From: Sedimenticola sp.
GTDB taxonomy: Bacteria > Pseudomonadota > Gammaproteobacteria > Chromatiales > Chromatiaceae
NCBI GenBank assembly: GCA_011051655.1
Contig: DRKS01000013.1
Location: forward strand, 1 to 64,000
Direction of reading: 5' to 3'
DNA length: 64,000 bases
The notes beneath the pieces are model-generated. The model did no database searches. It saw nothing but the letters and a program-made list of their open reading frames with translations, and was not told where the DNA came from. The translations under genes were made by a program, and so were the position numbers. Positions 3,803 through 61,426 of this stretch are shown here, piece by piece (within the stretch, counting starts at the first letter, position 1; every line of letters begins with the position of its first letter).

Positions 3803-4720
3803 TTAAGGATTGAAGGCGGTCTCGCCCACTGAGTCGCAATTGACAATGTAGCGGTAGGCATACCAGTCACGATCCGTGGGATCGGAATAGACATTGTTGT
3901 AGCGTTCGTAATACAGCCGGGTCAGGGCATCGGAAGCAGTCGTGCCTATGGTGTAGGCCACCGGGCATTGCTCCTGGCAGGTTCCGAACACATTCCAGGG
4001 GTCATACCATGCGCAGTCCACCGTGCCGTCATACATGTTGCTGACCCAGGATCTGGCCATGGCGACGGAATGCGCATCATTGGCGAATTCCCGGTAATCG
4101 CTGTCAAAACTGCTGCCGATCCACATGATGCCGTGGAACCCGTCCCACTGGTGGGCGCGCCGCCCCGTGGGCGGGCTGTCGTAAGGATCGTACATCGCTT
4201 CCCGAATGCCCGGGAGATTGTCATCATCGGCGCTATAGCAGGATGAAACGTGGATGAATTCAAGATCCCAATCACCTACCCACATATCGTCTGCCGATCC
4301 GCCGGCGTCAAGGGCGCAATGTCCGCTCCAGCGGAAACGCATAGTGCCCTGCCAGTGATCCCCGCTATCGGAGCCATGGGTCGCAATCATGGCGGCGTCG
4401 GCTTCATCGATATAGTTGTAATCGCGGCAACCGGAATTCCAGTCAGGATCGCAAAAACGCCGGATGGTCATATTGCCGTTGGTATATTGCCCATCCTTGG
4501 TATGGCCCTTGCTGCCCATCTTGTCATACCATTTGTCCACCATGGTCGGCCAGTGGGAACGATCGCCGCCGCCACAGCCGCCGGAACCGGAGGGCACAAA
4601 ATCCCCTATTGCGAATACTTTCACCTCCATCGCCAGGACGCCGGCCGGCGCTGCAAGCGCCAACAGCAGCGCCAACAGCACCCGTCTCCGGCAGTGGGAT
4701 AACTTGATTTTCCTGGTCAT
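3803..4720 (-). CDS. Exported DUF6345-like protein with His-Cys dyad
   Basis: A 305-residue protein starting at the ATG at 4720, which has GAGGAGG upstream; longer in-frame starts would overlap the next gene. Residues 1-30 are a signal peptide (LLALLLALAAPAGVLA). The motifs MIATHGSDSG (His115) and FIHVSSCYSAD (Cys161) are arranged like the His-Gly and Cys of clan CD cysteine peptidases (caspases, gingipains). The protein has many Trp and Asp residues and about ten cysteines, in line with an extracellular enzyme. I believe it corresponds to the family called DUF6345, but that is from memory. Peptidase activity is inference; a structural prediction would be the main test. Confidence 0.6.
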   Translation of the reverse strand: MTRKIKLSHCRRRVLLALLLALAAPAGVLAMEVKVFAIGDFVPSGSGGCGGGDRSHWPTMVDKWYDKMGSKGHTKDGQYTNGNMTIRRFCDPDWNSGCRDYNYIDEADAAMIATHGSDSGDHWQGTMRFRWSGHCALDAGGSADDMWVGDWDLEFIHVSSCYSADDDNLPGIREAMYDPYDSPPTGRRAHQWDGFHGIMWIGSSFDSDYREFANDAHSVAMARSWVSNMYDGTVDCAWYDPWNVFGTCQEQCPVAYTIGTTASDALTRLYYERYNNVYSDPTDRDWYAYRYIVNCDSVGETAFNP

Positions 4721-8423: not shown

Positions 8424-9657
8424 GCAGCCCCTTCGACGGTTCGATCCGGGTGGCGCGGTAAGCGGCCAGGGCCGATGAAAGAAGGGCGCAGAGCAGGGTC
8501 GCCGCCAGGCTGAAGGCCAGGTGGGACGGCAGCAGGCGGCACAGCCCCTCGAACTGGCCGGACGCCCGGGCGAAATAATTGTTGATCAGAATACTGATGA
8601 ACCCGAAAAGCACAATCGCCAGCCCCCCGCCGCACAAGGCGATGAGCGCAGACTGAACCATGGGGAAGAACATAATGACCGATGAGGGAAACCCCAGCAG
8701 TTGCAGCACGCTCAGCTCCCGGCGTTTGCGCTCGACATTCACCCACATGCTGGCGCCGAAAGAGAGCAAATAACCCGCCACCCCGATAAAGGCGATCATC
8801 AGATAGGTGGAGGTGAGATAGCGGTCGAACAGCCTCACCTCTTCGATGGCCTTGGCCTGGGTGATCACTTCATAACCCTGCCCGCCGCCGGCCAGCAGAT
8901 CACGCACGACCGGAACATCGTCCAGGCCGCGGACATAGAGACGAAAACCGGAAAAATAGCGGGGGCCGCTGAAGGGTTCGCCCTCGCCCCAGCCCAGTTC
9001 CGGAACGGCATAACCGTCCCGGTAGTCCTCGATGGCGGCCAGCAGTTGGGGTGAAACAAAGCCGCCCTTGCGGGCGAACACGCTGTCCGGGACCACCCCG
9101 GTCACCCGGAGTAAAACCTGTTCCCGCGACCACCGGCCACCCCGCTTGCGCCGCACGCTGGCCTTGACTCTGTCACCCGTCTTGGCCCCCATCAGCCGGG
9201 CGGTCCGGGCGGAAATGACAATGGACTCTTTGTCCGCAGGCGCCTTGGCATGGCCCTGGAGCAACGGATCCCCCGGGGCGGAGGGAATCAGCTCCACCGT
9301 GGCGCGCTCCCCCCCCGGCCCTTCGGGGCGCAGATCGATCGTGGCCGCCGCGCCCCTGGTGCGGGGGATGACGAAGGCGACCTCATCCCGGGCCGCCATG
9401 TTCTCGAACCAGTCCTGATCGAAACGCCCATGGCCGACCAGGCGGATCTCCCGGTTCCGGGGGTCTTCCACCAGCTCACGCGCAAGATTGTCGATAACAC
9501 CAAACTTGAGGCCGAACAGCACCAACAGCGGGGTAAGGACAGCCGCCAGCGCCAACACCAGCACCAATGAGGCCAGCTTCTGGTGCAACAGATCCCGCGC
9601 CGCCAGCCGGGCGATCTGGGACGCTGTGGCGCCTGAATTGCCGGCCGGAGCACTCAC
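8413..9657 (-). CDS. FtsX/LolE-like ABC transporter permease (TagS-like)
   Basis: A 414-residue inner-membrane protein with the FtsX/MacB-type layout: a first membrane helix at about residues 28-51, a large periplasmic domain (60-270), then three membrane helices (YLMIAFIGVAGYLLSFGA; FPMVQSALIALCGGGLAIVL; LAFSLAATLLCALLSSALAA). The cytoplasmic loop NVERKRRELSVLQLLGF is the coupling motif typical of the family. The start is GTG at 9657, overlapping the stop of the ATPase gene by 4 bp (GTGA), so the two are translated together. With the LolD-like partner it would form a mechanotransmission complex rather than a classical importer. The neighbourhood with an FGE-fold protein and a vWA protein matches TagT-TagS of type VI signalling. 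Confidence 0.8.
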   Translation of the reverse strand: MSAPAGNSGATASQIARLAARDLLHQKLASLVLVLALAAVLTPLLVLFGLKFGVIDNLARELVEDPRNREIRLVGHGRFDQDWFENMAARDEVAFVIPRTRGAAATIDLRPEGPGGERATVELIPSAPGDPLLQGHAKAPADKESIVISARTARLMGAKTGDRVKASVRRKRGGRWSREQVLLRVTGVVPDSVFARKGGFVSPQLLAAIEDYRDGYAVPELGWGEGEPFSGPRYFSGFRLYVRGLDDVPVVRDLLAGGGQGYEVITQAKAIEEVRLFDRYLTSTYLMIAFIGVAGYLLSFGASMWVNVERKRRELSVLQLLGFPSSVIMFFPMVQSALIALCGGGLAIVLFGFISILINNYFARASGQFEGLCRLLPSHLAFSLAATLLCALLSSALAAYRATRIEPSKGLREL

Positions 9658-10379
9658 GAGTGAAACTCCGATCGCAATACGCCTTTCTCATCCACCTGCT
9701 CATGATGAAGCCTGGTCAGCCCCAGCTCAGTGACCCGCGCCCAATCATGACTGGCCACCAGAAGCGTTATGTTGCGCTGGGCCGCCAACTCCACAAAAAG
9801 CTCCATCACCTCGGCCGCCGTATGCGGATCCAGCGAAGCGGTGGGCTCATCCGCCAGAACCACACTGGGCTCATGGGACAGGGCGCGGGCCACGGCCACC
9901 CGCTGGCGCTGCCCTACCGACAGGGTGGCGGGCAACTTTTCAAGCTGATCGCCGATCTTCAGGCGCTCGGCCAGGGCCCGGGGCACGCCATTCACGGGGA
10001 GACCGCACAGGCGCCGCGGCAATTCGATGTTCTCGCGCACGGTGATGAAAGGGAGCAACCCGCCGGTCTGGAGGACATAGCCGATATGGCGTCCGCGAAG
10101 CCCCGCCAGCCGATCCATGCGGCGACTGCTCCAGGCCTCATGGATGTCAGTGCTGTTTCCCGTTTCCGGCTCAAAACGGAATGCTTTACTGGTGGTGGGC
10201 TCCAGGGTCATGGCCAGGATATCCAGCAGGGTGCTCTTGCCACAGCCGCTCTGCCCCAGCACCGCGATCCGCTGGCCGGCCTTGATGTCCAGGCGGGGAA
10301 TCGAGAGTTGGAACTCCTCGTCCGGTGCGGCCCATGTTTTTGTCACACCGCGCAGGCTGAATATGGTGCGGGCGCTCAT
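9654..10379 (-). CDS. LolD/MacB-like ABC transporter ATPase (TagT-like)
   Basis: A 241-residue ATP-binding subunit. Walker A GQSGCGKST (42-50), Q-loop near VLQTGGLLP (102-110), signature LSVGQ (153-157) and Walker B VVLADEP (173-179) are intact, followed by TASLD and the switch histidine in LLVASHDWARVT. It belongs to the LolD/FtsE/MacB branch that works with FtsX-fold permeases, encoded immediately downstream with a 4-bp overlap. It acts at the cytoplasmic face of the inner membrane. The ATG at 10379 is 34 bp after the stop of the vWA gene, in the same operon. Confidence 0.87.
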   Translation of the reverse strand: MSARTIFSLRGVTKTWAAPDEEFQLSIPRLDIKAGQRIAVLGQSGCGKSTLLDILAMTLEPTTSKAFRFEPETGNSTDIHEAWSSRRMDRLAGLRGRHIGYVLQTGGLLPFITVRENIELPRRLCGLPVNGVPRALAERLKIGDQLEKLPATLSVGQRQRVAVARALSHEPSVVLADEPTASLDPHTAAEVMELFVELAAQRNITLLVASHDWARVTELGLTRLHHEQVDEKGVLRSEFHS

Positions 10380-44203: not shown

Positions 44204-44260
44204 TGCACCGCTTGAACAACCTCCGGCGACAAACCAGCCATCTCTTTTAACCTCCCCTGA

Positions 44261-44296
44261 CCTCCCCCTTCGTCAAAGGGGGATTGAGGGGGATTT
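44261..44296. repeat. MITE-like repeat copy 1 (CCTCCCCCTT...AGGGGGATTT)
   Basis: A 36-bp element with internal inverted repeat CCCCCTT/AAGGGGG (loop CGTCA) and tail ATTGAGGGGGATTT. Three copies occur within 700 bp, flanking the HIRAN gene. A short extra piece, inverted, is at about 63830-63850. Similar C-run/G-run elements are frequent intergenic repeats in Gammaproteobacteria. Confidence 0.85.
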
Positions 44297-44378
44297 ACTA
44301 AATTTTTTCCACAGGCTCACGTTTTGAGCCACCGCCTGTGCTATCAATACCGTAAATAGAAAAAGCGGAGCCACCATC

Positions 44379-44786
44379 ATGCACAGACGAACCTTCATCC
44401 ACACCCTGATCAGCGGTCTCGGCATCCTCGGTTTCCAAGGCGCCATGCACCGGACAAACGGCATTTCACGGAAAATCCTGCTCCAGGAATCGCCCCTCGC
44501 CGGCTACCAGTACCACCGCGCCCCCGGCGTCTGGCCCTTCCTCCGGGAAGGGGAACAACTGCGCCTGATCAGAGAACCACACAACCGCCACGACCCCAAC
44601 GCCATCGCCGTCTGGTTCAAAAACGACATGCTGGGTTACGTCCCCCGCCGGGAAAACAGAACCCTGGCCCAGGTGATGGACCGTGGAGAGAAACTGAAGG
44701 CCCGCATCACTCGTCTGCTCGTGGAATCTGATCCGTGGCAGCGGCTACGGTTTGAGGTATTTCTCGATGGCCGGGCCATAACCTGA
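44379..44786 (+). CDS. Tat-exported HIRAN-domain protein
   Basis: A 135-residue protein. The N-terminus MHRRTFIHTLISGLGILGF fits a twin-arginine signal (RRTF followed by a hydrophobic stretch). The rest is a single HIRAN domain: SPLAGYQYHRAPGVWPFLR, LRLIREPHNRHDPNAIAVWF, LGYVPRRENRTLAQVMDRG. HIRAN domains bind DNA ends, usually fused to SNF2 helicases inside cells; an exported stand-alone copy is unusual. The flanking repeats suggest a mobile or recently moved segment. Function unknown. Confidence 0.8.
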   Translation: MHRRTFIHTLISGLGILGFQGAMHRTNGISRKILLQESPLAGYQYHRAPGVWPFLREGEQLRLIREPHNRHDPNAIAVWFKNDMLGYVPRRENRTLAQVMDRGEKLKARITRLLVESDPWQRLRFEVFLDGRAIT

Positions 44787-44828
44787 TCAAAAATCATGTC
44801 CAAGCCATCTACAAACAACAATACGTGA

Positions 44829-44860
44829 CCTCCCCCTTTGCTAAAGGGGGATTGAGGGGG
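44829..44860. repeat. MITE-like repeat copy 2
   Basis: CCTCCCCCTTTG/CTAAAGGGGGATTGAGGGGG. Same element as at 44261, located 42 bp after the HIRAN stop. Confidence 0.85.
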
Positions 44861-44894
44861 TGGGCTATATGCCATAAAACCTGACCGGCCATTG

Positions 44895-44930
44895 CCTCCC
44901 CCTTTGGCAAAGGGGAATTGAGGGGGATTT
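44895..44930. repeat. MITE-like repeat copy 3
   Basis: Third copy with GGCAAAGGGGAATTGAGGGG in its right half. It lies 34 bp after copy 2, both in the same orientation as copy 1. Confidence 0.85.
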
Positions 44931-45261
44931 ATCGAGAGCCTCATCCCCCAGCAGCCAATTCGTACCAAGGGTGGACCTTTGATTATCAATAAGTTAGCGG
45001 ACGAGAATGAAATAAGTCACACAAATGGTATGCGACAGTTCACTCCCATTTTGATATGAACGGCGTAAGATGGAGTTGTTTCGAAAACCACAAGAGCCCT
45101 GGTGCAGTGCAGTGCCTCAAGCAAACTTCCAGGTCATGGCAATTGGGGAAAAAACAACCGGCACCGCCTCATCTGGTGAAGCTGAGTTGTGCTACGAAAG
45201 CCGCAAGGGTGAGCATTCTTCTGGAGGTGGCCTGAGCCGCAGGAGGGATTGAAATGGTCGG
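44931..45261. other. 331-bp gap with no supported gene
   Basis: No convincing gene. A 60-codon plus-strand frame (45070-45252) has no ribosome site and no recognisable domain. The segment is moderately AT-rich at its left end and may hold remnants of mobile DNA; I recognise nothing specific. Confidence 0.4.
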
Positions 45262-45558
45262 TTATCTATTTGGTCTTTTGTCCGGATCATGGGCCTTCAT
45301 ATACTCCCGCAACAGGGTATTGATCTCCGTCTGGTATCCCTTACCGCGCGCTTTGAACCACGTAAGAACATCCCTGTCGATACGCAACGTTACCTGCTGC
45401 TTCCCAGGCCAGGATTTCAGCCCTTTACGCACAATGCCCTTGGCAAACATCTCCGGCGTAACTTCCGGATTTTCTGACATATTGATCTCCTCATCCGTCA
45501 GGGCATCGACCCTCTTCCAATCAGTTTGGGAGGTGGTTGAAGAAGCTTTCTTGCTCAT
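45262..45558 (-). CDS. brnA: BrnA-type antitoxin
   Basis: A 98-residue antitoxin beginning MSKKASSTTSQTDWKRVDAL. The middle has the BrnA sequence EEINMSENPEVTPEMFAKG and the C-terminal ribbon-helix-helix KQQVTLRIDRDVLTWFKARGKGYQTEINTLLREYM split over two stretches. It neutralises BrnT and represses the pair. Its start lies inside brnT (38-bp overlap). Confidence 0.93.
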   Translation of the reverse strand: MSKKASSTTSQTDWKRVDALTDEEINMSENPEVTPEMFAKGIVRKGLKSWPGKQQVTLRIDRDVLTWFKARGKGYQTEINTLLREYMKAHDPDKRPNR

Positions 45559-45796
45559 GTTTGGTTGCCTTTCGTATCGAGATGATGCGGATGGTATCGA
45601 CATCTTCGGTGTGTACCACCGAAACGACGCGACCCTCCAGAAAACCGAATGTAATGAAGCGCTGTTCGCCGTAATCAACCCGGCCATCTTCAAGAGAGAG
45701 TGTCACACCTTCGAAGACCTGCTTACATCCAACAAAGTCGATGCCATGTTTTTGGATGTTGGCGAGACGTTTGGCTTCATCCCATTCGAATCTCAT
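45521..45796 (-). CDS. brnT: BrnT-type ribonuclease toxin
   Basis: A 91-residue toxin of the BrnT/RelE-like fold: FEWDEAKRLANIQKHGIDF at the start, FEGVTLSLEDGR, then VVSVVHTEDVDTIRIISIRK with the basic catalytic patch. BrnT cleaves RNA and stops translation. It is first in the operon and diverges from the cas operon; the shared gap (45797-46082) contains the predicted cas guide RNA. Confidence 0.93.
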   Translation of the reverse strand: MRFEWDEAKRLANIQKHGIDFVGCKQVFEGVTLSLEDGRVDYGEQRFITFGFLEGRVVSVVHTEDVDTIRIISIRKATKHEQESFFNHLPN

Positions 45797-45894: not shown

Positions 45895-45913
45895 TTCATG
45901 TTAGTTTTATTAG
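45895..45913 (+). promoter_or_regulatory. Predicted self-target of the cas guide RNA (TTC PAM + 16 bp)
   Basis: TTC (45895-45897) is followed by ATGTTAGTTTTATTAG (45898-45913). This matches 15 of the first 16 bases of the pseudo-spacer at 45987; the one mismatch is at position 6, a position that is flipped out and not read in type I effector complexes. The bound complex would cover the -35 box that starts two bases further on. Confidence 0.75.
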
Positions 45914-45914
45914 A

Positions 45915-45944
45915 TTGACAAATTTCTTATTCAATCGGTATCCT
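45915..45944 (+). promoter_or_regulatory. Promoter of the guide RNA and probably the cas operon
   Basis: TTGACA (45915-45920), an 18-bp spacer, and TATCCT (45939-45944). The predicted start, near 45951, falls exactly at the first degenerate repeat. No other good promoter lies between here and cas3, so readthrough from this start may express the cas genes. Confidence 0.7.
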
Positions 45945-45952
45945 TTAATGGT

Positions 45953-46057
45953 GGTTTCCGATGCTGGGCATCGGCCTCATTGAAGGATGTTCGTTTTATT
46001 AGTAAGGACATGAAATTGAAAATATTCCGGGGCAGCAGGCCCCGGCCTCATTGCCAA
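45953..46057 (+). ncRNA. crRNA-like guide from a degenerate two-repeat mini-array (CreR-like)
   Basis: Pseudo-repeat 1 (45953-45986) and pseudo-repeat 2 (46022-46057) enclose a 35-nt spacer (45987-46021), the normal spacer size of the main array. Both keep the repeat architecture. The main repeat has stem CCGTGGC/GCCACGG; pseudo-repeat 1 has CCGATGC/GCATCGG (two compensatory pair changes) and pseudo-repeat 2 has CCGGGGC/GCCCCGG (one). The 3' handle CCTCATTGAAGC is CCTCATTGAAGG in the first copy, and CCTCATTG is kept in the second. A Cas6-type domain (in Csb2) could therefore cut both and release a crRNA. It ends 25 bp before cas3. I infer a regulatory guide as in CreR (Cas-regulating RNA) circuits. 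Confidence 0.82.
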
Positions 46058-46082: not shown

Positions 46083-48483
46083 ATGGATAGCATTGGTCCG
46101 CAACAGAGTTATCAACGCTTTTTTCAAATAGCCATGGGAGCGGAAAAGAAGCCCTTTCCATATCAGACCAAACTGGCAACAGAGACTTGGCCGGACCTGC
46201 TGGAGATTCCAACCGGACTTGGAAAGACCGCCGCAGTGATTTTGGCTTGGCTCTATAAACGAAAAAACAGAGACTCCGATACCCCCGGGCGCTTGATCTA
46301 CTGCCTGCCGATGCGCGTACTGGTAGAGCAGACTCAACGCAACGCCGAACAATGGATAAAAGCACTTGGACTGAGCAATGATGTCTCCGTGCATTTGCTG
46401 ATGGGCGGAGAGGAGTGTCTCCGCAAGGCAGCCTGGGCTGATTCTCCGGAGCAGGCGTGCATCCTGATCGGCACCCAGGACATGCTGCTCTCCCGTGCCT
46501 TGATGCGAGGCTACGGCATGAGCCGGTATCAGTGGCCCATGCACTTCGGCCTGCTGCATAACGATGCGCTGTGGATCTATGACGAGATCCAGCTCATGGG
46601 GGCAGGGCTGCCCACCACAGCACAATTGGAGGCGTTCCGGAGGGAATTCCCACTGGGGGCGCGAAGCCGCAGCCTGTGGCTCTCGGCCACCCTTCACCCC
46701 GATTGGCTGGCGACAGTTGATCTCAAGCCCCATCTTGCTTCACTCCGCCATGACACGCTGGGAGATGAAGACAGGCAACATCCTGCCGTCCGGCAGCGTA
46801 CCCAGGCCCGCAAGATTTTGAGCAAAGCCGACATCGCTCTGACCGGAGCCACCAAGGCGGACACGGCCTCTTACATCACGGCGTTGGCGGACCGGGTTCG
46901 CCAGACCCATATGGATAACAGCAACACCATCGTCATCCTGAACCGGGTCGAGCGGGCTCAGGCGGTTTATCAGGAGCTCGCCAAACAGATGCCGGAAGTG
47001 GAGCGCCTCCTTATCCATGCCCGCTTCCGCCCCGGCGAGCGCCGAGCCCAGGCGGAAAAACTTACGGAAGAACCGGGACCCCAGGGGAGGATCATCATCG
47101 CCACACAAGCCATCGAGGCGGGTGTTGATATCAGCTCGGCCATCCTCTTTACCGAACTGGCCCCCTGGTCCTCCCTGGTGCAGCGTTTCGGCCGCTGCAA
47201 CCGCTATGGCGAACAGCCGGTGGCCCATATCCACTGGATCGATATTGCAACCGATGCTAAACCCGATACCGCGCTGCCCTACGATCCCGCCGTCCTGGAT
47301 GCCAGCCGCGAACAGCTGCTGAACCTCGAAGAGGCTGGCCCGGCCTCATTACCAAAAGTGAGCGGTGAGCGCCCCCTGTCGCCGGTGATCCGTCGCAAGG
47401 ATCTGCTGGATCTCTTCAATACCGATCCCGACCTGTCGGGCTTTGATGTGGATATTTCCATGTACATCCGAGACCAGGGCCCGCCGCAGATCCAGGTCTT
47501 CTGGCGCGACTTCGACGATCAACCCGGCGACCAGGAACCGCCACAGCGGGATGAACTCTGTCCCGCCTCCATGGGGCAGATTGAGGCCTACCTGAAACCC
47601 GACAAGCGCCGAGCCTGGCAGTGGGATGGTCTCTCCGACCAGTGGCGGCCGGTGCAAAAGGGCCAACTCCGGCCGGGCCAGATATTGCTGCTGCGCAATA
47701 GCGATGGCGGTTATGACGACAAGCTGGGGTTCGAGGCCGGAACCAAAACACCCGTGCCTCCCATCCCCCTTGAGAAGAGCGAAGCCAATGGCGCCTATAG
47801 CGGCGATCCCGACAGCCGCCAGACCAAAGCCATTCCGTTGGCCAGACATCTGACCAACGTACATCAGACCGCCCGGAAACTGACGAAAACCCTCGGCATC
47901 GAGTTGTTTGCCGATACCGTCTGCCAGGCCGCTCTGTGGCATGACGTGGGCAAGTCGCATTCGGAGTTCCAGAAAACCCTCTATGGACAGGAGCGGGAAG
48001 CCGCTGAACCCCTGCTGGCGAAATCGAGCAGAAAAGGGAAACACAAGCGCGAATATCTGCGCCACGAACTCGCCTCCATGCTGGCGTGGCTGGAGCACGG
48101 CGAGCGTGACAAGTGGCACGACCTGATCGCCTACCTGATCCTCGCCCACCACGGCAAGGTCCGCACCAGTATCCGCGCCATGCCGGATGAAGAGCCACCG
48201 AAGGAGGATTGGATCAAGCAACACGATCTGAACAACCCCCTCTACGCCCGCGGCATCTGGGAAGGGGACAAACTGCCCGCCCTGGAGATCGCAGGTGTCC
48301 CGATCCCCGAAACCCGCCTGCGGCTCGATCTCATGCGCCTGGGCCAGAGCGAACAGGGCGCCTCATGGACCGCCAGGGTACAGCAACTTCTGCACCAGCA
48401 TGGGCCTTTCCAGTTGGCTTGGCTGGAGACCCTGGTGCGGATCGCCGACTGGCGGGCCACCGCCGAGGAACAGGAGAAGGACG

Positions 48484-48491
<8 letters not shown>
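46083..48491 (+). CDS. cas3: Cas3 helicase-nuclease, C-terminal HD (type I-G)
   Basis: An 802-residue Cas3. The helicase comes first: Walker A PTGLGKT (43-49), DExH-box variant IYDEIQL, LSATL, and motif VI SLVQRFGRCNRYGE. The HD nuclease is at the C-terminus with LWHDVGKSHSEF (H620, D621) after HLTNVHQTARKL. This reversed order is typical of I-U/I-G systems. It is recruited by the effector complex to unwind and degrade target DNA. AGGA sits 7 bases before the ATG. The 3' end overlaps csx17 by 8 bp. The gap to the upstream guide RNA is 25 bp. Confidence 0.95.
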
Positions 48492-51607
<3,116 letters not shown>

Positions 51608-51610
51608 CCC

Positions 51611-53107
51611 ATGCTCACCATCGAACTGAAATTTGTGGCTGGGCGCTATCACGCCACCCCGTGGGGGCGCCACGTCAATGAAGCGGATGTGGCCTGGCCG
51701 CCGGATGCCTGGCGGGTCATCCGGGCCCTGATCGCCACTTGGCACCGCAAGCTGGACAAGGATCGCTATCCCGAAACCCTGCTCTCCAGCCTGGTGGAGC
51801 GCTTGGCTGAATCCCTGCCCCGCTACCATCTGCCCGGCGCCGTGCATACCCACACCCGCCACTACATGCCGATTCGCTCAGGCAAGGCGGAAAAACCGAT
51901 TCTGGTCTACGACGCCTTCGCCAGGATCGCCGCCAGTGAGCCCATCATAATGGCTTGGCCCGACCTTTCCCTTGGTCGGGAAGAGCAGGCCCTGCTAGAT
52001 GAATTGCTGACCTGCATGGGCTACCTGGGACGAGCCGAGAGCTGGCTGGAGGCCAGGCGCCTGGAACAGTGGGAAGGTAAGTTCAACTGCGTGCCGGGCG
52101 ACCAGGCACTGGATGCCGAGACCGGCGAACTGCGAGAGATCGTGCGTTGCCTGGCGCCGCTCTCAAACGCAGAGTATCGGGCCCTGCGCACCAACCAGTT
52201 AGCGGCGCAAGACCAAAGGGGGCAAACGAGGCTGGCCAAAACCCTCCCGGAATCCCTCCTGGATGCCCTGCGTCTGGAGACGGCCGACCTGCAAAAAGCT
52301 GGCTGGAGCCAGCCGCCAGCAGCACAGAGTATCTGCTATCTGCGGGAACTGAATAGCCTAAAGCCCCAATCATTCCCAAAAACCAAAGTAACAAGCTGCA
52401 CCCATGATACCGCCCGCTTCATGCTGATCGGAAAACCACTGCCCCGCATTGAAAATGCAGTAAAGGTCGGAGAGTGGATGCGGCTCGCAGTATTGAGCAA
52501 GGCCAAGGGCGTATTCGGCGAAAACGCCATCCCCGCCTGCCTCTCAGGCCATGGGCTACCCAAGGGCAACCGCCACCAACACGCCTTCTTCCTGCCCGAG
52601 GATGCCGACGACGATGGCCATATCGACCATATCTGGGTCCATGTGCCGCAAGGGCTCAGCCATGACAGCCGGCGGGCACTGGGGCGCTTAACCCACCTGA
52701 AAGGACGGGACGGCGGCGAGTGGCAGCTGGTTTTAGAAACCACCGCCCAACGCGAACAATTCGCCGATGCCGCCCCGGTGGGAACCGCCGGATGCTGGGT
52801 ATCCACGACCCCCTATCTCCACCCCTGGCATCTCAAGAAAAAACTCACGGTAGAGGATCAGATCCGCCGTGAATGCCGCGCACGGGGCATACCCGAGCCG
52901 GAAACGATGGAGCAGCTTCCGGAAATCACCATCCATGGCAAATCAAGACGAGCGATCCATTTCCATCGTTTCCGCTCCAAACGCGGCCTAACTCAGCCCG
53001 ACACCCACGGCAGTTTTTGGCGGCTCACCTTTGCCAAACCCGTTCAAGGGCCATTGGCCCTGGGATTTGGCTGCCACTTCGGCCTGGGCCTGTTCAAGCC
53101 CATCTGA
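51611..53107 (+). CDS. csb2: Csb2 (Cas5-Cas6 fusion, GSU0054 family)
   Basis: A 498-residue protein. The N-terminal part (about 1-250) is Cas5-like (LTIELKFVAGRYHATPWGRH), and the C-terminal part is Cas6-like, ending in the glycine-rich RAMP loop LALGFGCHFGLGLFKP. In I-G systems it processes the pre-crRNA at the repeat hairpin and caps the 5' handle. It would also be the enzyme that cuts the degenerate repeats in front of cas3. Candidate catalytic histidines include those in NRHQHAFF. Confidence 0.92.
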   Translation: MLTIELKFVAGRYHATPWGRHVNEADVAWPPDAWRVIRALIATWHRKLDKDRYPETLLSSLVERLAESLPRYHLPGAVHTHTRHYMPIRSGKAEKPILVYDAFARIAASEPIIMAWPDLSLGREEQALLDELLTCMGYLGRAESWLEARRLEQWEGKFNCVPGDQALDAETGELREIVRCLAPLSNAEYRALRTNQLAAQDQRGQTRLAKTLPESLLDALRLETADLQKAGWSQPPAAQSICYLRELNSLKPQSFPKTKVTSCTHDTARFMLIGKPLPRIENAVKVGEWMRLAVLSKAKGVFGENAIPACLSGHGLPKGNRHQHAFFLPEDADDDGHIDHIWVHVPQGLSHDSRRALGRLTHLKGRDGGEWQLVLETTAQREQFADAAPVGTAGCWVSTTPYLHPWHLKKKLTVEDQIRRECRARGIPEPETMEQLPEITIHGKSRRAIHFHRFRSKRGLTQPDTHGSFWRLTFAKPVQGPLALGFGCHFGLGLFKPI

Positions 53108-53118
53108 GGACAGCTGTC

Positions 53119-54192
53119 ATGGATGAAACACAATTCCACCCCAATGACCGTGTCTTCCACCCCATCTTTGGCTATGGGACGGTGGTTGAGGTCGGGGAAG
53201 ACAGTGAACAGCTTTCCGTCCATTTCGATGGCTATGCCACGAAGTGGCTGGCGCTTAAATACGCCTTTTTGCGGTTGGTGACGCCCGAAGAGGAGGCTTC
53301 GGAAACGGCCAGGGCCGTCTCCTGGCTCGATACCTTTGTATTCGAGGAAGAGGGCGATCATTACTTTGGCACCCGCTGGACCCCTTTTTTCGATGACGCC
53401 GAAGGTTTCTTTCAGCGGCTGCCGGAGATTCTGCCGAAGGCCATCCCACTACAAGGCTATGGCGACTTTTTTCCGCCTCCACACCAATATCCGCCCGATT
53501 GGTCTAAGGTGCGGTACCTTGCCTGGCCGGATGTTCACCAAGCTGTGTTGCTGGCAATCAAGGAGAATGAGGGCCGGGAATCTGAGCTGGTCTCGCTCTT
53601 TCCTCACTGCCGCAGCGGCATGGAACATACGGTGACCATCGAGCGCGTGCTGGTTTGGAAAGACAGTTGCGAGGCGCAGATCGATGGAGTCGTTGGCCCC
53701 GCCTGTATCACCTTCTTCGACACCCTGTATGGCGTGAATCGTGGCTGGTACGAATCGGGGCGGGATCTTCAGTTCATTCTCACCGGCATCGCCTACGATG
53801 CCTGTAAGGCCCCGATTCAGGAGTTCGATATCCCCCCATCCGAAGTAGATGCATCCATACGAGAAAAAGCAAAACAGAACGGCATCGATCTCACCGAATT
53901 GCCGTCAAAGATAGACACCCGCCACATGCAGATACTGCTCCCCATTCCGGATTGGGACAGGGATGACTACCAGTTCCACGGGCCGGTGAAATCGGTGAAG
54001 GAGACGGTGATGCTGAATCAGCCGGGGTGGCTGATACGGACTGCTTTGGTGCGCGGGATGGAGGACGACAGGGAGTACGATTTCGATATCCTCATCACCC
54101 GCAAGGCGTGGGAAGGCGATGAGCCGCCCAGGGCCGGCGAAAATATCGAAGGGGCGATGTGGCTCCAGGGTTATCTCTGGTCGGCGAGGTAA
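53119..54192 (+). CDS. Ancillary protein in the cas operon: UvrD-type Tudor domain + unknown domain
   Basis: A 357-residue protein, ATG at 53119 with GAGGA 8 bases upstream, 11 bp after csb2 on the same strand. Residues 1-55 (HPNDRVFHPIFGYGTVVEVG...VHFDGYATKWLALKYAFLRL) resemble the Tudor-like C-terminal domain of UvrD/PcrA helicases, which binds RNA polymerase or nucleic acid. The remaining about 300 residues have no motif I know; they are Trp-, Tyr- and Asp-rich with a beta pattern (WYESGRDLQFILTGIAYDA; MQILLPIPDWDRDDYQFHG). It is not a core I-G gene. Its place in the operon suggests an accessory role in interference or its control. Confidence 0.7.
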   Translation: MDETQFHPNDRVFHPIFGYGTVVEVGEDSEQLSVHFDGYATKWLALKYAFLRLVTPEEEASETARAVSWLDTFVFEEEGDHYFGTRWTPFFDDAEGFFQRLPEILPKAIPLQGYGDFFPPPHQYPPDWSKVRYLAWPDVHQAVLLAIKENEGRESELVSLFPHCRSGMEHTVTIERVLVWKDSCEAQIDGVVGPACITFFDTLYGVNRGWYESGRDLQFILTGIAYDACKAPIQEFDIPPSEVDASIREKAKQNGIDLTELPSKIDTRHMQILLPIPDWDRDDYQFHGPVKSVKETVMLNQPGWLIRTALVRGMEDDREYDFDILITRKAWEGDEPPRAGENIEGAMWLQGYLWSAR

Positions 54193-54946: not shown

Positions 54947-56659
54947 ATGGACCACGGCCCCCAACAAGAACTCCCCCTCTCCTTCCCGGAGTTCACCGGC
55001 GACATGCCGCTCATGCCGGCGCGGATGATCAACGAATATGTCTACTGCCCACGCCTTGCCTATCTGGAGTGGGTGCAGGGGGAGTGGGCAGATTCCGGGG
55101 ATACCGTTCACGGGCGCTGGGTGCACCGGCGGGTGGACAAGCCTGCGAAAGAGTTGCCGCCGCCGGAGAAAATCGAGCAAGAGGAGCGCTTCCACGCCCG
55201 CTCTATCACCCTCTCCTCCAACCGGCTCGGGCTGATCGCCAAGATGGATCTGGTGGAGGGCGACGGCGAAACCGTCACCCCGGTGGATTACAAACGCGGC
55301 AAGCGTCCCCATGTGGCCAAGGGCGCCTATGATCCGGAGCGGGTGCAACTCTGCGTTCAGGGCATGCTGCTGGAAGAGCATGGTTACCGGTGCGAGGAGG
55401 GGGTGCTCTATTTTGCCGGCTCCAGGGAGCGGGTCACGGTCCAATTCGACGAGGAACTGCGCAACAAAACCCTCTCCGCCATCAACGGCCTGCGGTTGTT
55501 CGCCGCGGGCGGCCATGCACCGTCACCGCTGGAGGAGAGCCCCAAGTGCCCGCGTTGCTCATTAGTGAGCATCTGTCTGCCAGACGAGGTCAACTTCTTC
55601 CGCCATGGCGGCGAGAATCCGCGCCCCCTCTCCGTCATGCGGGACGAGGCCCTGCCGCTGTACGTGCAGGCCCATCACGCCAAGGTGGCGAAGAAGGGCG
55701 AGGTGCTGGAGGTCTCGGTGGACGGCAAGCGAGTCACCCAGGTACGGCTGCTGGACGTCTCCCAACTGGTGTTGATGGGCAACGTCTACGTCACCTCGCC
55801 CTGCCTGCAGGAGTTGATGAAACGCGAGATCCCCATCACCTGGCACTCCTACGGTGGCTGGTTCTACGGTCACTCCGTCGGGGCGGGCCATAAAAACGTT
55901 GAACTGCGCACCGCCCAATACCAGGGGAGTTTCGACGAGCAGGTCTGCCTGCGCATTGCTCGAAACCTGGTGCACGATAAGATCCTCAATTGCCGCACCC
56001 TGCTCCGGCGCAACTGGAAGGGGGATGAAAGCAACAAACCCCTCATGCAGGACCTGAAGCGTGATGCCACCTGCGCCCTGCGTGCCCAAAGCATTGCCGA
56101 ACTGCTGGGTATCGAGGGGGCCGCGGCCGCCCGTTACTTCGGCAACTTTGCCCGGATGATCAAGCGGGATCCCAACAGCGACGGCTTTGCATTCGATTTC
56201 ACCCACCGCAACCGCCGCCCCCCCGCCGATCCCGTCAACGCCCTGCTCTCCTATGCGTATAGCCTGCTGTCACGCACCTGGCATGTCACCCTTGCGGCGG
56301 TGGGGTTCGATCCCTACCGCGGTTTCTACCACCAACCCCGTTATGGAAGGCCCGCATTGGCGCTGGATATGATGGAGCCCTTCAGGCCACTCATCGCCGA
56401 CTCCAGCGTCATCTCCGCCATCAACAACGGCGAGGTGCGGCCCAGCGATTTCATCAGTGCCGCCGGCAGCGTCAACCTTACCCCGGATGGGCGCAAACGC
56501 TTCATCGCCGCCTTGGAACGCCGGCTCACCCATGAGATCACCCACCCGGTATTCGGCTATAAGATAAGCTATCGCAGAGTGTTAGAGGTGCAGTCCCGAC
56601 TTCTTGGCCGCTTCCTGACCGGCGAAATCAACCAATTCCCCAACTTCATCACAAGGTGA
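54947..56659 (+). CDS. cas4-cas1: Cas4-Cas1 fusion protein
   Basis: A 570-residue fusion. The Cas4 part (about 1-215) has the iron-sulfur cysteines C34 (NEYVYCPRLAYLEW), C201, C204 and C210 (CPRCSLVSIC) and the nuclease core HARSITLSSNRLGLIAKMDL/VTPVDYKRGK. The Cas1 integrase (about 220-570) has NALLSYAYSLL, GFDPYRGFYHQPRYGRPALA and DMMEPFRPLIAD with the metal-binding residues. Cas4-Cas1 fusions are a mark of I-U/I-G systems; in Geobacter the fusion selects spacers with a TTN PAM. AAGGAA lies before the ATG. It is followed 4 bp later by cas2. Confidence 0.95.
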   Translation: MDHGPQQELPLSFPEFTGDMPLMPARMINEYVYCPRLAYLEWVQGEWADSGDTVHGRWVHRRVDKPAKELPPPEKIEQEERFHARSITLSSNRLGLIAKMDLVEGDGETVTPVDYKRGKRPHVAKGAYDPERVQLCVQGMLLEEHGYRCEEGVLYFAGSRERVTVQFDEELRNKTLSAINGLRLFAAGGHAPSPLEESPKCPRCSLVSICLPDEVNFFRHGGENPRPLSVMRDEALPLYVQAHHAKVAKKGEVLEVSVDGKRVTQVRLLDVSQLVLMGNVYVTSPCLQELMKREIPITWHSYGGWFYGHSVGAGHKNVELRTAQYQGSFDEQVCLRIARNLVHDKILNCRTLLRRNWKGDESNKPLMQDLKRDATCALRAQSIAELLGIEGAAAARYFGNFARMIKRDPNSDGFAFDFTHRNRRPPADPVNALLSYAYSLLSRTWHVTLAAVGFDPYRGFYHQPRYGRPALALDMMEPFRPLIADSSVISAINNGEVRPSDFISAAGSVNLTPDGRKRFIAALERRLTHEITHPVFGYKISYRRVLEVQSRLLGRFLTGEINQFPNFITR

Positions 56660-57201: not shown

Positions 57202-60200
57202 GTTATCCGTGGCAAATAGCCACGGCCTCATTGAAGCTGGTGGAGGGGCAGCGACACTGGCTGGACTGCATGGAGTTATCCGTGGCAAATAGCCACGGCC
57301 TCATTGAAGCACATGCACCAATCAAAGATAACCTGTCCTTTACCATGTTATCCGTGGCAAATAGCCACGGCCTCATTGAAGCAAGGGCTTGTGCGGTATC
57401 GGCTATTTCTGAAGACCCGTTATCCGTGGCAAATAGCCACGGCCTCATTGAAGCTTCTTTATTTTCCCGCTTTTAACTCCTTTATTGTGTTATCCGTGGC
57501 AAATAGCCACGGCCTCATTGAAGCAATTGGTTGGTGATAGCTTTTTCAATGATCTCAGCTCGTTATCCGTGGCAAATAGCCACGGCCTCATTGAAGCCGC
57601 CCCTGGCGGGCCAGGTCGTCCAGCGCCTCTTCAAGTTATCCGTGGCAAATAGCCACGGCCTCATTGAAGCAAGACCTAGGTGCTTCTCACAATACGCCCT
57701 ATCGTAGTTATCCGTGGCAAATAGCCACGGCCTCATTGAAGCCCAGATTTGAGGCCACCACGCCCATGGCAATGGCAGTTATCCGTGGCAAATAGCCACG
57801 GCCTCATTGAAGCCTACCAATACATGGGAATAACTACCGGGTGAAAATCCGTTATCCGTGGCAAATAGCCACGGCCTCATTGAAGCCCCTGTATCTTTCT
57901 GAAAAGCGTACATTTTACGGCCGTTATCCGTGGCAAATAGCCACGGCCTCATTGAAGCAACCTTTTTTTCATTCATCTGACAATGCCTTCAAAAAGTTAT
58001 CCGTGGCAAATAGCCACGGCCTCATTGAAGCATGCCTGGCCGCTTGCTGTGCATCCTGATGGACCTGTTATCCGTGGCAAATAGCCACGGCCTCATTGAA
58101 GCCCAGTAACCGCTTGCTGAGGTCCGTCGGCGAGCCAGGTTATCCGTGGCAAATAGCCACGGCCTCATTGAAGCTCGAAAGACAGACGAGGGCCTCGCCT
58201 GTGTCATAGTCAGTTATCCGTGGCAAATAGCCACGGCCTCATTGAAGCCCGGAAGCCTTGCACCGCATAAACAGGCGCTTTTCGTTATCCGTGGCAAATA
58301 GCCACGGCCTCATTGAAGCGGCGGACAAGCCGTTTTCCGCTCTGGTGCTTGATGGGTTATCCGTGGCAAATAGCCACGGCCTCATTGAAGCGTGATTCGA
58401 TAGGTCTCCCAAAGCTCGATATGCCGGGTTATCCGTGGCAAATAGCCACGGCCTCATTGAAGCGTCTTAATCGAGGAGGGGAACTTTTCCACCAGGTGGG
58501 GTTATCCGTGGCAAATAGCCACGGCCTCATTGAAGCTATGACTACGTCCGCACTCTCTCCGGCAGCCTTCTGGGTTATCCGTGGCAAATAGCCACGGCCT
58601 CATTGAAGCATTCGGGCGGAAACATCTTACCTTTCCGTCTTACCCGTTATCCGTGGCAAATAGCCACGGCCTCATTGAAGCTGTTACGTATCCGCTGATT
58701 AGTACCGTCGAATAAAAAGTTATCCGTGGCAAATAGCCACGGCCTCATTGAAGCCCCCGGGTTTCCTGCCGCTTGGTAATCGGAATAATAGGTTATCCGT
58801 GGCAAATAGCCACGGCCTCATTGAAGCTCGGGGAGACTAGTTTAAATGGCTTATCGTGTACAGGTTATCCGTGGCAAATAGCCACGGCCTCATTGAAGCA
58901 GACGGCGTAATGGCGGGAGTGTCGTTAGTCTGCAGTTATCCGTGGCAAATAGCCACGGCCTCATTGAAGCGCATCGTGATGCGTACGACGAAGATATTTA
59001 ACGCGAAGTTATCCGTGGCAAATAGCCACGGCCTCATTGAAGCGGAAAAAGCAACTCCCGGGTACAATCCCATAAAAGACGTTATCCGTGGCAAATAGCC
59101 ACGGCCTCATTGAAGCATTTCTTTGGGGGATGCGCAGCAGAAAGATGCCGGTTGTTATCCGTGGCAAATAGCCACGGCCTCATTGAAGCTCTGTTGGTAG
59201 CCGTTAATGGAACAAAAGTGATACCGGTTATCCGTGGCAAATAGCCACGGCCTCATTGAAGCGATGGTGATCATAGCTGTGAGTTCGAGACGTTGTATGT
59301 TATCCGTGGCAAATAGCCACGGCCTCATTGAAGCTGACCATGTTCAAGAATCTCTTTGATCCAGTCGCCGATGTTATCCGTGGCAAATAGCCACGGCCTC
59401 ATTGAAGCATATAGGCGGTTGTTCTTTATAGCTTTTTGTTCTAGTTATCCGTGGCAAATAGCCACGGCCTCATTGAAGCCCTAATTTGCAGGCCATTCAT
59501 TCCACAGAAGGGCGGGTTATCCGTGGCAAATAGCCACGGCCTCATTGAAGCGACGAAGCAGGAACGCAACTGCAATCAGGATCGGACGTTATCCGTGGCA
59601 AATAGCCACGGCCTCATTGAAGCAACAGATACGGAGAAGAGTCTGCCGGCAGGGTCGTGGGGTTATCCGTGGCAAATAGCCACGGCCTCATTGAAGCTTG
59701 TATATACTGATAATCGAGGGCACAAAACTTGCGTTATCCGTGGCAAATAGCCACGGCCTCATTGAAGCAGGCCAGCGAGCTGATACCGCCGCCAAGCGAC
59801 CTCAGTTATCCGTGGCAAATAGCCACGGCCTCATTGAAGCGGCGAGCAGTGCTGGCCCGCTTTCGTCAATGAGCGCAAGTTATCCGTGGCAAATAGCCAC
59901 GGCCTCATTGAAGCCGGATGCCGCATTTCAGCGCTGCGGCCAGGGCCACTGTTATCCGTGGCAAATAGCCACGGCCTCATTGAAGCAGCTCAGTTTCACG
60001 TTCCTTTCTTATCTTTTCTAAGTTATCCGTGGCAAATAGCCACGGCCTCATTGAAGCTAAGGTTTTTTCTTCTTTGAGGACAGGCACCACACCCGTTATC
60101 CGTGGCAAATAGCCACGGCCTCATTGAAGCTAATTCCTTAAGGGTATACCTAGTACTTTTAACACTGTTATCCGTGGCAAATAGCCACGGCCTCATTGAA

Positions 60201-61426
60201 GCTATAACAAATCCATGCAGCCTTTTATGCAGATTCATGGTTATCCGTGGCAAATAGCCACGGCCTCATTGAAGCTACAATAAGGTTGTAAATAAAAACC
60301 CTATCCTCTTTCGTTATCCGTGGCAAATAGCCACGGCCTCATTGAAGCATTAGTGTTCTTTCACTGCATTTTTGCCCCATCCTAAGTTATCCGTGGCAAA
60401 TAGCCACGGCCTCATTGAAGCGATATTGTGGAAGAGATAAATAATGATTTATTAGAGTTATCCGTGGCAAATAGCCACGGCCTCATTGAAGCTTCCCCGA
60501 CCTTATCCTGGGATGCGTTCTCAAGCGGTTATCCGTGGCAAATAGCCACGGCCTCATTGAAGCACGCCTGCGCTTTTTCGCCGCCCTGCGCATCTTTGGT
60601 TATCCGTGGCAAATAGCCACGGCCTCATTGAAGCTCCTTGGCCGCCTTTTTCCAGTCCTCCAGACTCACGTTATCCGTGGCAAATAGCCACGGCCTCATT
60701 GAAGCGTCTACGTTTCCGCCAAAAGCGAGGCGGGCTTTTCCGGTTATCCGTGGCAAATAGCCACGGCCTCATTGAAGCCCGTCCTATTTCCAGCAAACCC
60801 AGTTGACACAAATGGTTATCCGTGGCAAATAGCCACGGCCTCATTGAAGCTTGGCATGTCGTTGTCCTTAATAGGGGGTTGCGTGAAGTTATCCGTGGCA
60901 AATAGCCACGGCCTCATTGAAGCATTACAGGAGTTAAAAAACCAAATGGAGCGTACCTGGTTATCCGTGGCAAATAGCCACGGCCTCATTGAAGCTGCGG
61001 AATCATCGGATACTGTTGTTCGGCCACGGCGTTATCCGTGGCAAATAGCCACGGCCTCATTGAAGCGACAAGGTTGGGCCGGCCGGGGCGCCAGATTGCC
61101 CGGTTATCCGTGGCAAATAGCCACGGCCTCATTGAAGCTTCCTGGTGGATGAGTTGATTGCGCACTTGCATGGCGTTATCCGTGGCAAATAGCCACGGCC
61201 TCATTGAAGCACCAGGATGTATTCATCATCCAGCGTGCCGCCGCTGTTATCCGTGGCAAATAGCCACGGCCTCATTGAAGCCTCTCCCCACCGGCGGCTG
61301 TAGCCCAGTCGCTCCAGGTTATCCGTGGCAAATAGCCACGGCCTCATTGAAGGGGACACCAAATCCTGATCCCGAAAGAACTCGTTAAAAGTTATCCGTG
61401 GCAAATAGCCACGGCCTCATTGAAGC
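57202..61426 (+). CRISPR. Type I-G CRISPR array, 59 repeats, 58 spacers
   Basis: The repeat is 36 bp: GTTATCCGTGGC, loop AAATA, GCCACGG, CCTCATTGAAGC. Starts run from 57202, 57275, 57347 to 61246, 61318, 61391; I counted 59. Spacers are 34-38 bp (mean period 72.2 bp). The 7-bp stem CCGTGGC/GCCACGG suits Cas6-type processing. Repeats are essentially identical along the whole array; the only variant I noticed is the next-to-last (61318-61353), which ends in G instead of C. The final repeat is intact. All open frames inside the array are artefacts of the repeat. Confidence 0.99.

Follow-up and report, generated by a model that had tools for sequence, protein, structure and literature searches.

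A candidate Cas-regulating crRNA-like RNA in the leader of a type I-G cas operon

The window analysed here, a stretch of 64,000 nucleotides from Sedimenticola sp., carries a complete type I-G CRISPR-Cas locus followed by a CRISPR array (Table 1). The assignment to type I-G derives from a profile search in which cas3g, csx17, csb1, csb2, and a cas4-cas1 fusion were all present, with these five cas families scoring above the curated NCBIfam cut-offs. The main array is built from the repeat GTTATCCGTGGCAAATAGCCACGGCCTCATTGAAGC, which has a CCGTGGC/GCCACGG stem, and its spacers are 34–38 nt in length. The interval between csb2 and cas4-cas1 contains a 439-aa open reading frame (ORF; 52873–54192) with a weak match to the PcrA/UvrD tudor domain. 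A palindromic element (CCTCCCCCTTTG...AAAGGGGGATTGAGGGGG) occurs three times at 44250–44931, with the CRISPR locus downstream; these copies are possibly small mobile or intergenic repeats.

Table 1. Features of the type I-G locus and its surroundings, in window coordinates (CreR, Cas-regulating crRNA-like RNA).
Feature	Position	Strand	Basis or remark
brnA antitoxin gene	45262..45558	-	PF14384, E 4e-18
brnT toxin gene, divergent from cas3	45521..45796	-	PF04365, E 5e-26; start 102 nt from target
TTC, PAM-like triplet of target	45895..45897	+	sequence
Target (protospacer) of mini-array spacer	45898..45932	+	paired part 45898-45913; rest at about random match level
Predicted promoter TTGACA-18-TATCCT shared by mini-array and cas3 operon	45915..45944	+	consensus match; -35 at 45915-45920, second box at 45939-45944
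Pseudo-repeat 1 (GTGGTTTCCGATGCTGGGCATCGGCCTCATTGAAGG)	45951..45986	+	sequence
Pseudo-repeat 1 stem CCGATGC/GCATCGG	45958-45974	+	
Pseudo-repeat 1 cleavage context CCTC	45975-45978	+	Csb2 cut site predicted from T. sulfidiphilus (PMC9638904)
Pseudo-repeat 1 5′ handle ATTGAAGG	45979-45986	+	
Predicted mature CreR, 71 nt: 8-nt handle, 35-nt guide, then 28 nt of repeat 2 including the 3′ hairpin	45979..46049	+	predicted from the Csb2 cleavage rule
Mini-array spacer, 35 nt, guide part of proposed CreR	45987..46021	+	
Pseudo-repeat 2 (ATATTCCGGGGCAGCAGGCCCCGGCCTCATTGCCAA)	46022..46057	+	
Pseudo-repeat 2 stem CCGGGGC/GCCCCGG, then CCTC	46027-46045 (stem)	+	
Pseudo-repeat 2 degenerate handle ATTGCCAA	inside 46022..46057	+	
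cas3 (Cas3g), operon gene 1	46083..48491	+	TIGR02621, E 3e-245
cas8g/csx17	48490..50634	+	TIGR04113, E 2e-212
csb1/cas7	50651..51607	+	TIGR02570, E 8e-41
csb2 (Cas5-Cas6 fusion, crRNA processing)	51611..53107	+	TIGR02165, E 6e-60
cas4-cas1 fusion	54947..56659	+	NF049935, E 1e-252
Main CRISPR array, 59 repeats	57202..61426	+	

A first-pass annotation had proposed a degenerate mini-CRISPR directly upstream of cas3, and the sequence confirms it: two degenerate repeats flank a single 35-nt spacer. The stem changes described there as compensatory are real when both pseudo-repeats are set against the array stem. The accompanying claim that both repeats keep the tail of the array repeat holds for repeat 1, whose 5′ handle is retained, but not for repeat 2, which has lost the end of its handle, as it has in relatives. 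The near-identical repeats of an ordinary array are not seen here, since stem and handle vary between the two pseudo-repeats and also between these and the array. Single-sequence folding gives weak hairpin z-scores for the pseudo-repeats (−0.9 and −1.5), and therefore, the case for a guide RNA rests on the target match and on relatives rather than on the hairpins.

The promoter proposed for this element is present as a consensus match and ends just 5′ of repeat 1, with a predicted transcription start near 45951. Its significance is modest, a scan tool having found one such promoter against 0.8 expected; the best-of-region probability in shuffles is P = 0.0145. Csb2 is known to leave an 8-nt handle by cutting 4 nt 3′ of the stem (PMC9638904), and application of this rule to the mini-array predicts the 71-nt RNA listed in Table 1.

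The start of the spacer (ATGTTCGTTTTATTAGTAAGG...) recurs as a partial copy on the same strand, 89 nt upstream (ATGTTAGTTTTATTAG; 15 of 16 nt). The match begins at spacer nt 1, ends at nt 16, and has its sole mismatch at nt 6; after nt 17, similarity falls to background. The complementarity between the spacer and its own cas promoter is limited and of the seed type. The copy lies directly upstream of TTGACA with TTC before it, and the promoter −35 falls inside the 35-nt target. Within the 3.1-Mb assembly, the spacer 16-mer, with up to two mismatches allowed, occurs only at the spacer and at the target. The triplet flanking the target is TTC in the window and TTN in all 13 mini-array loci described below. 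When array spacers were searched for protospacers that would reveal the PAM, those of the window array gave no match to phage or plasmid records, and those of the L042 array (L numbers designate loci of the comparative sample) gave none to phages. One type I-G Cas4/1 recognises 5′-GAA-3′ in prespacers, which is TTC on the other strand (PMC10504553) and agrees with the window triplet, but the Bifidobacterium I-G system uses TAT (PMC12915315).

The same design had been seen in five loci before any masked scan, with unrelated spacers that each match their own upstream sequence. The sample as a whole comprises 95 distinct type I-G loci, drawn from genomes of the class and from Cas3g-based hits in several phyla. 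An initial repeat-independent scan for direct repeats was dominated by array copies, so arrays were masked thereafter; 77 of 88 scan matches were discarded as non-TT matches inside coding sequence and array remnants. Controls with permuted handles yielded up to five matches, once, at a looser threshold, and hence, a stricter seed rule and an architecture-first test were used. In the latter, mini-arrays were picked by architecture alone, with the target unused: a handle-like repeat 1, and a hairpin plus CCTCATTG-like repeat 2 at +55 to +66.

This returned 26 candidates, which, sorted by our judgement of position and repeat quality, comprised 13 true intergenic units near cas genes and 13 stretches of coding sequence or array remnants. 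A TTN-flanked target lies upstream in all 13 true units, at a distance of 47–420 nt: within 200 nt in 11 and, after a wider search, at 365 and 420 nt in L064 and L106. For each of the 13, none of 1,000 spacer shuffles matched as well as the real spacer within 500 nt, whereas the best matches of the rejected candidates equalled the null. Spacers vary between loci, yet each fits its own target. Of the 95 loci, 81 have no recognisable CreR, and therefore, CreR is not essential. Nor does every I-G mini-array target the cas promoter itself, because in L064 and L106 the target precedes other genes, at a distance of 365–420 nt. On the Cas3g tree, the trait has a scattered distribution (13 rows) that requires 11 changes, at least nine of them forced by starred branches. 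In L116 and L121, Thiosymbion loci that are sisters in this tree, the spacers are unrelated and so are the targets, yet each spacer still fits its own target, a pattern suggestive of rapid turnover of guide and target together; an alignment of their upstream regions revealed no clear homology.

Across the 13 loci, the number of matches at successive spacer positions is 12, 13, 13, 13, 13, 2, 13, 12, 12, 11, 13, 3, 11, 10, 10, 9, and 7, followed by about 3 of 13, which is background. No pairing is needed at spacer positions 6 and 12, and the matches run out near nt 17. A control for selection bias, in which the ignored positions were varied, gave 11 hits when 6 and 12 were ignored and 4–7 for any other phase. 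In type I effectors, guide nt 6 is unpaired. The structure of the I-G effector has every sixth base flipped out (PMC9638904), and the pattern seen here equals the published pairing rule for CreA, which demands exact, essential pairing at nt 1–5 and 7–11, with 6 and 12 free and a TTC PAM (PMC8501985). The CreA rule, applied strictly to the sample, returned 10 hits, nine of them true and one (L118) a chance match in coding sequence, versus 0–2 with permuted handles and one downstream. Target position 6, which is unpaired, is A in 11 of the 13 loci, and in 11 it does not match the guide; the A may reflect a preference of the flipped-out position.

The two repeats also divide their labour. In 11 loci, the 5′ handle is kept in repeat 1 (7.1 of 8 positions versus 4.5 of 8 in repeat 2, p = 0.002), and the stem is kept in repeat 2 (7.3 bp versus 4.3 bp in repeat 1, p = 0.012). 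This is as expected for one processed guide with a 5′ handle and a 3′ hairpin, and the opposite conservation of handle and stem argues against decay. The first-pass annotation had likewise favoured a crRNA-like RNA over decay, on the grounds of covariation. That argument is correct, yet weaker than the one now available: 13 of 13 I-G mini-arrays have a TTN-flanked upstream seed match, which strongly supports a crRNA-like RNA, with its function predicted from sequence. The target, the proposed repression of the operon's own promoter, and the link to the CreR class go beyond that annotation.

The reading favoured here, to which we assign a probability of roughly 0.87, is that 45951–46057 encodes a CreR that would act as the guide for repression of the cas3 operon by the type I-G Cascade; in other words, the CRISPR system most likely turns itself down through this guide. 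RNA polymerase would start at the TTGACA/TATCCT promoter, making the mini-array the 5′ leader of the cas3-csx17-csb1-csb2 mRNA. Csb2 would then cut 4 nt past each hairpin and release an RNA of about 71 nt that carries the repeat 1 handle and the repeat 2 hairpin; the degraded handle of repeat 2 would stop the remaining mRNA from serving as a guide. Csb1, Csb2, and Cas8g bound to this RNA would be led to 45898–45932 beside TTC, with pairing at nt 1–5 and 7–16. The resulting short R-loop is predicted to block polymerase at the −35, repressing the operon without licensing destruction by Cas3; the lack of any pairing past nt 17 would account for the operon's escape from destruction. Published CreRs suggest, by analogy, that the repression would be lifted by additional crRNA, by a shortage of free effector, or by an anti-CRISPR (PMC12737573).

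Degenerate repeats and a short unit would also be seen at the decaying end of an old array that has no function. A relic of this kind, however, would not keep a TTN-flanked match to the seed in every one of 13 cases, nor would it show opposite handle and stem conservation in its two repeats, which makes it very improbable. The similarity is, in form, a direct repeat inside one promoter region and might thus be taken for the duplicated operator of a DNA-binding regulator, with the adjoining hairpins unrelated. This is barely credible, since the match starts exactly at the handle/spacer junction, after TTN, and skips nt 6 and 12, and since the matched sequence differs by locus in a way predicted by no operator family. 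It is improbable, too, that the leader acts without a guide, with Csb2 binding and cutting the hairpins to tune the mRNA and the spacer being incidental. Both hairpins do lie within the predicted 5′ leader of cas3, Csb2 retains cleaved hairpins (PMC9638904), and such feedback may act alongside CreR; however, it leaves the match between spacer and promoter unexplained, and the unit is 200–300 nt from cas3 in L125 and L106.

The divergent brnTA operon offers another possible object of control. Here, the guide would repress brnTA, alone or together with cas3, and loss of Cascade would deregulate the toxin, an addiction arrangement akin to CreTA and CrePA. A brnTA pair diverges from the target in 5 of 14 guide loci (the window, L050, L074 of Thioalkalivibrio halophilus, L101, and L138), the 14 being the 13 mini-arrays plus the single-repeat L086, versus 1 of 81 loci without a guide (Fisher p = 2e-4). 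The distance from target to BrnT start is 88–108 nt in the four loci measured, the −35 of a candidate brnT promoter in the window (TTGATT-17-TACACT) adjoins the PAM-like TTC, and the L106 target sits between parD and parE. Against this, guide and target share the strand of the cas genes and overlie the cas −35, a protein antitoxin for BrnT already exists, and intact brnTA is missing from 9 of the 14 CreR loci; the brnT promoters are, moreover, post hoc consensus matches, with none convincing in L074. Repression of brnTA by the guide is regarded as unlikely, and the proposition that one I-G CreR complex, seated between divergent promoters, holds down both the cas operon and brnTA is similarly doubtful. 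If such dual control were true, CRISPR autoregulation and addiction would be one switch, with both flipped at once by an anti-CRISPR.

CreRs are already known for types I-B, I-E, and V-A (PMC13131331, PMC12737573). The window element shares with these a degenerate-repeat mini-CRISPR beside cas genes, a spacer partly complementary to the cas promoter, and the logic of autorepression; as in a CreR, one spacer lies between two degenerate repeats, outside the array, and is linked to cas genes. It differs in belonging to type I-G, with Csb2 processing, no separate Cas5/Cas6, Cas3 first in the operon, and the element itself in the cas3 leader, and in that repression is here predicted from sequence. 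With CreA of the CreTA systems of Haloarcula hispanica and Halobacterium hubeiense, it shares two degenerate repeats, the first more diverged in sequence, as well as seed pairing at nt 1–5 and 7–11, free nt 6 and 12, and a TTC triplet before the target (PMC8501985, PMC9458426). CreA, however, represses the RNA toxin creT, and the element is not taken for a CreTA: the predicted start at repeat 1 leaves no sequence for creT between promoter and repeat. CrePA, in which a protein toxin is repressed via CreA (PMC12737573), likewise has a protein toxin–antitoxin pair beside guide and target (brnTA here, parDE in L106); in contrast, the window target overlaps the cas promoter, and toxin control is putative.

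A literature search found no paper naming CreR and type I-G together, two key 2023 papers on CreR and mini-arrays being outside its scope. The 2023 survey "Widespread CRISPR-derived RNA regulatory elements in CRISPR-Cas systems" is said to describe mini-arrays that occur across a range of type I systems and partly match cas or cargo promoters, the same combination of mini-array and partial promoter match as in the window. CreR is a known kind of element, and no report of a type I-G example was found. The present case would extend RNA-guided CRISPR-Cas autorepression to type I-G, whose effector is the least understood of type I, and the 13 natural guide/target pairs show which bases pair in it (nt 1–5, 7–11, and 13–17). 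A practical prediction for work with I-G systems is that a guide controls the native cas promoter, which could then be derepressed deliberately in laboratory strains.

Several loci show further genes beside the guide or its target. In L106 (4148–4826), the target at 4467–4483 (TTC; nt 1–5 and 7–12 paired) lies between parD-like and parE-like genes, assigned by reading the sequences, and the order continues as parE, mini-array, cas3; this arrangement possibly represents a guide-controlled toxin in type I-G. In L086 (183–709), a single handle-like repeat directly 5′ of a PIN-domain-like (VapC-like) ORF has its target, flanked by TTA, 46 nt upstream; the repeat is without a normal hairpin, and GTGCCCTGAG/CTCAGGGCAC arms surround the spacer. 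In L064, from Candidatus Methylobacter oryzae, the target (in the region 8444–9727) follows a gene resembling a WYL-type regulator and precedes a 62–70-aa ORF, after which come the guide unit and then cas3. Small divergent ORFs with a membrane-like stretch, recognised by eye, start beside the target in L125 (6452–6610) and L042 (about 2800–2995) and could be either small toxins or chance ORFs.
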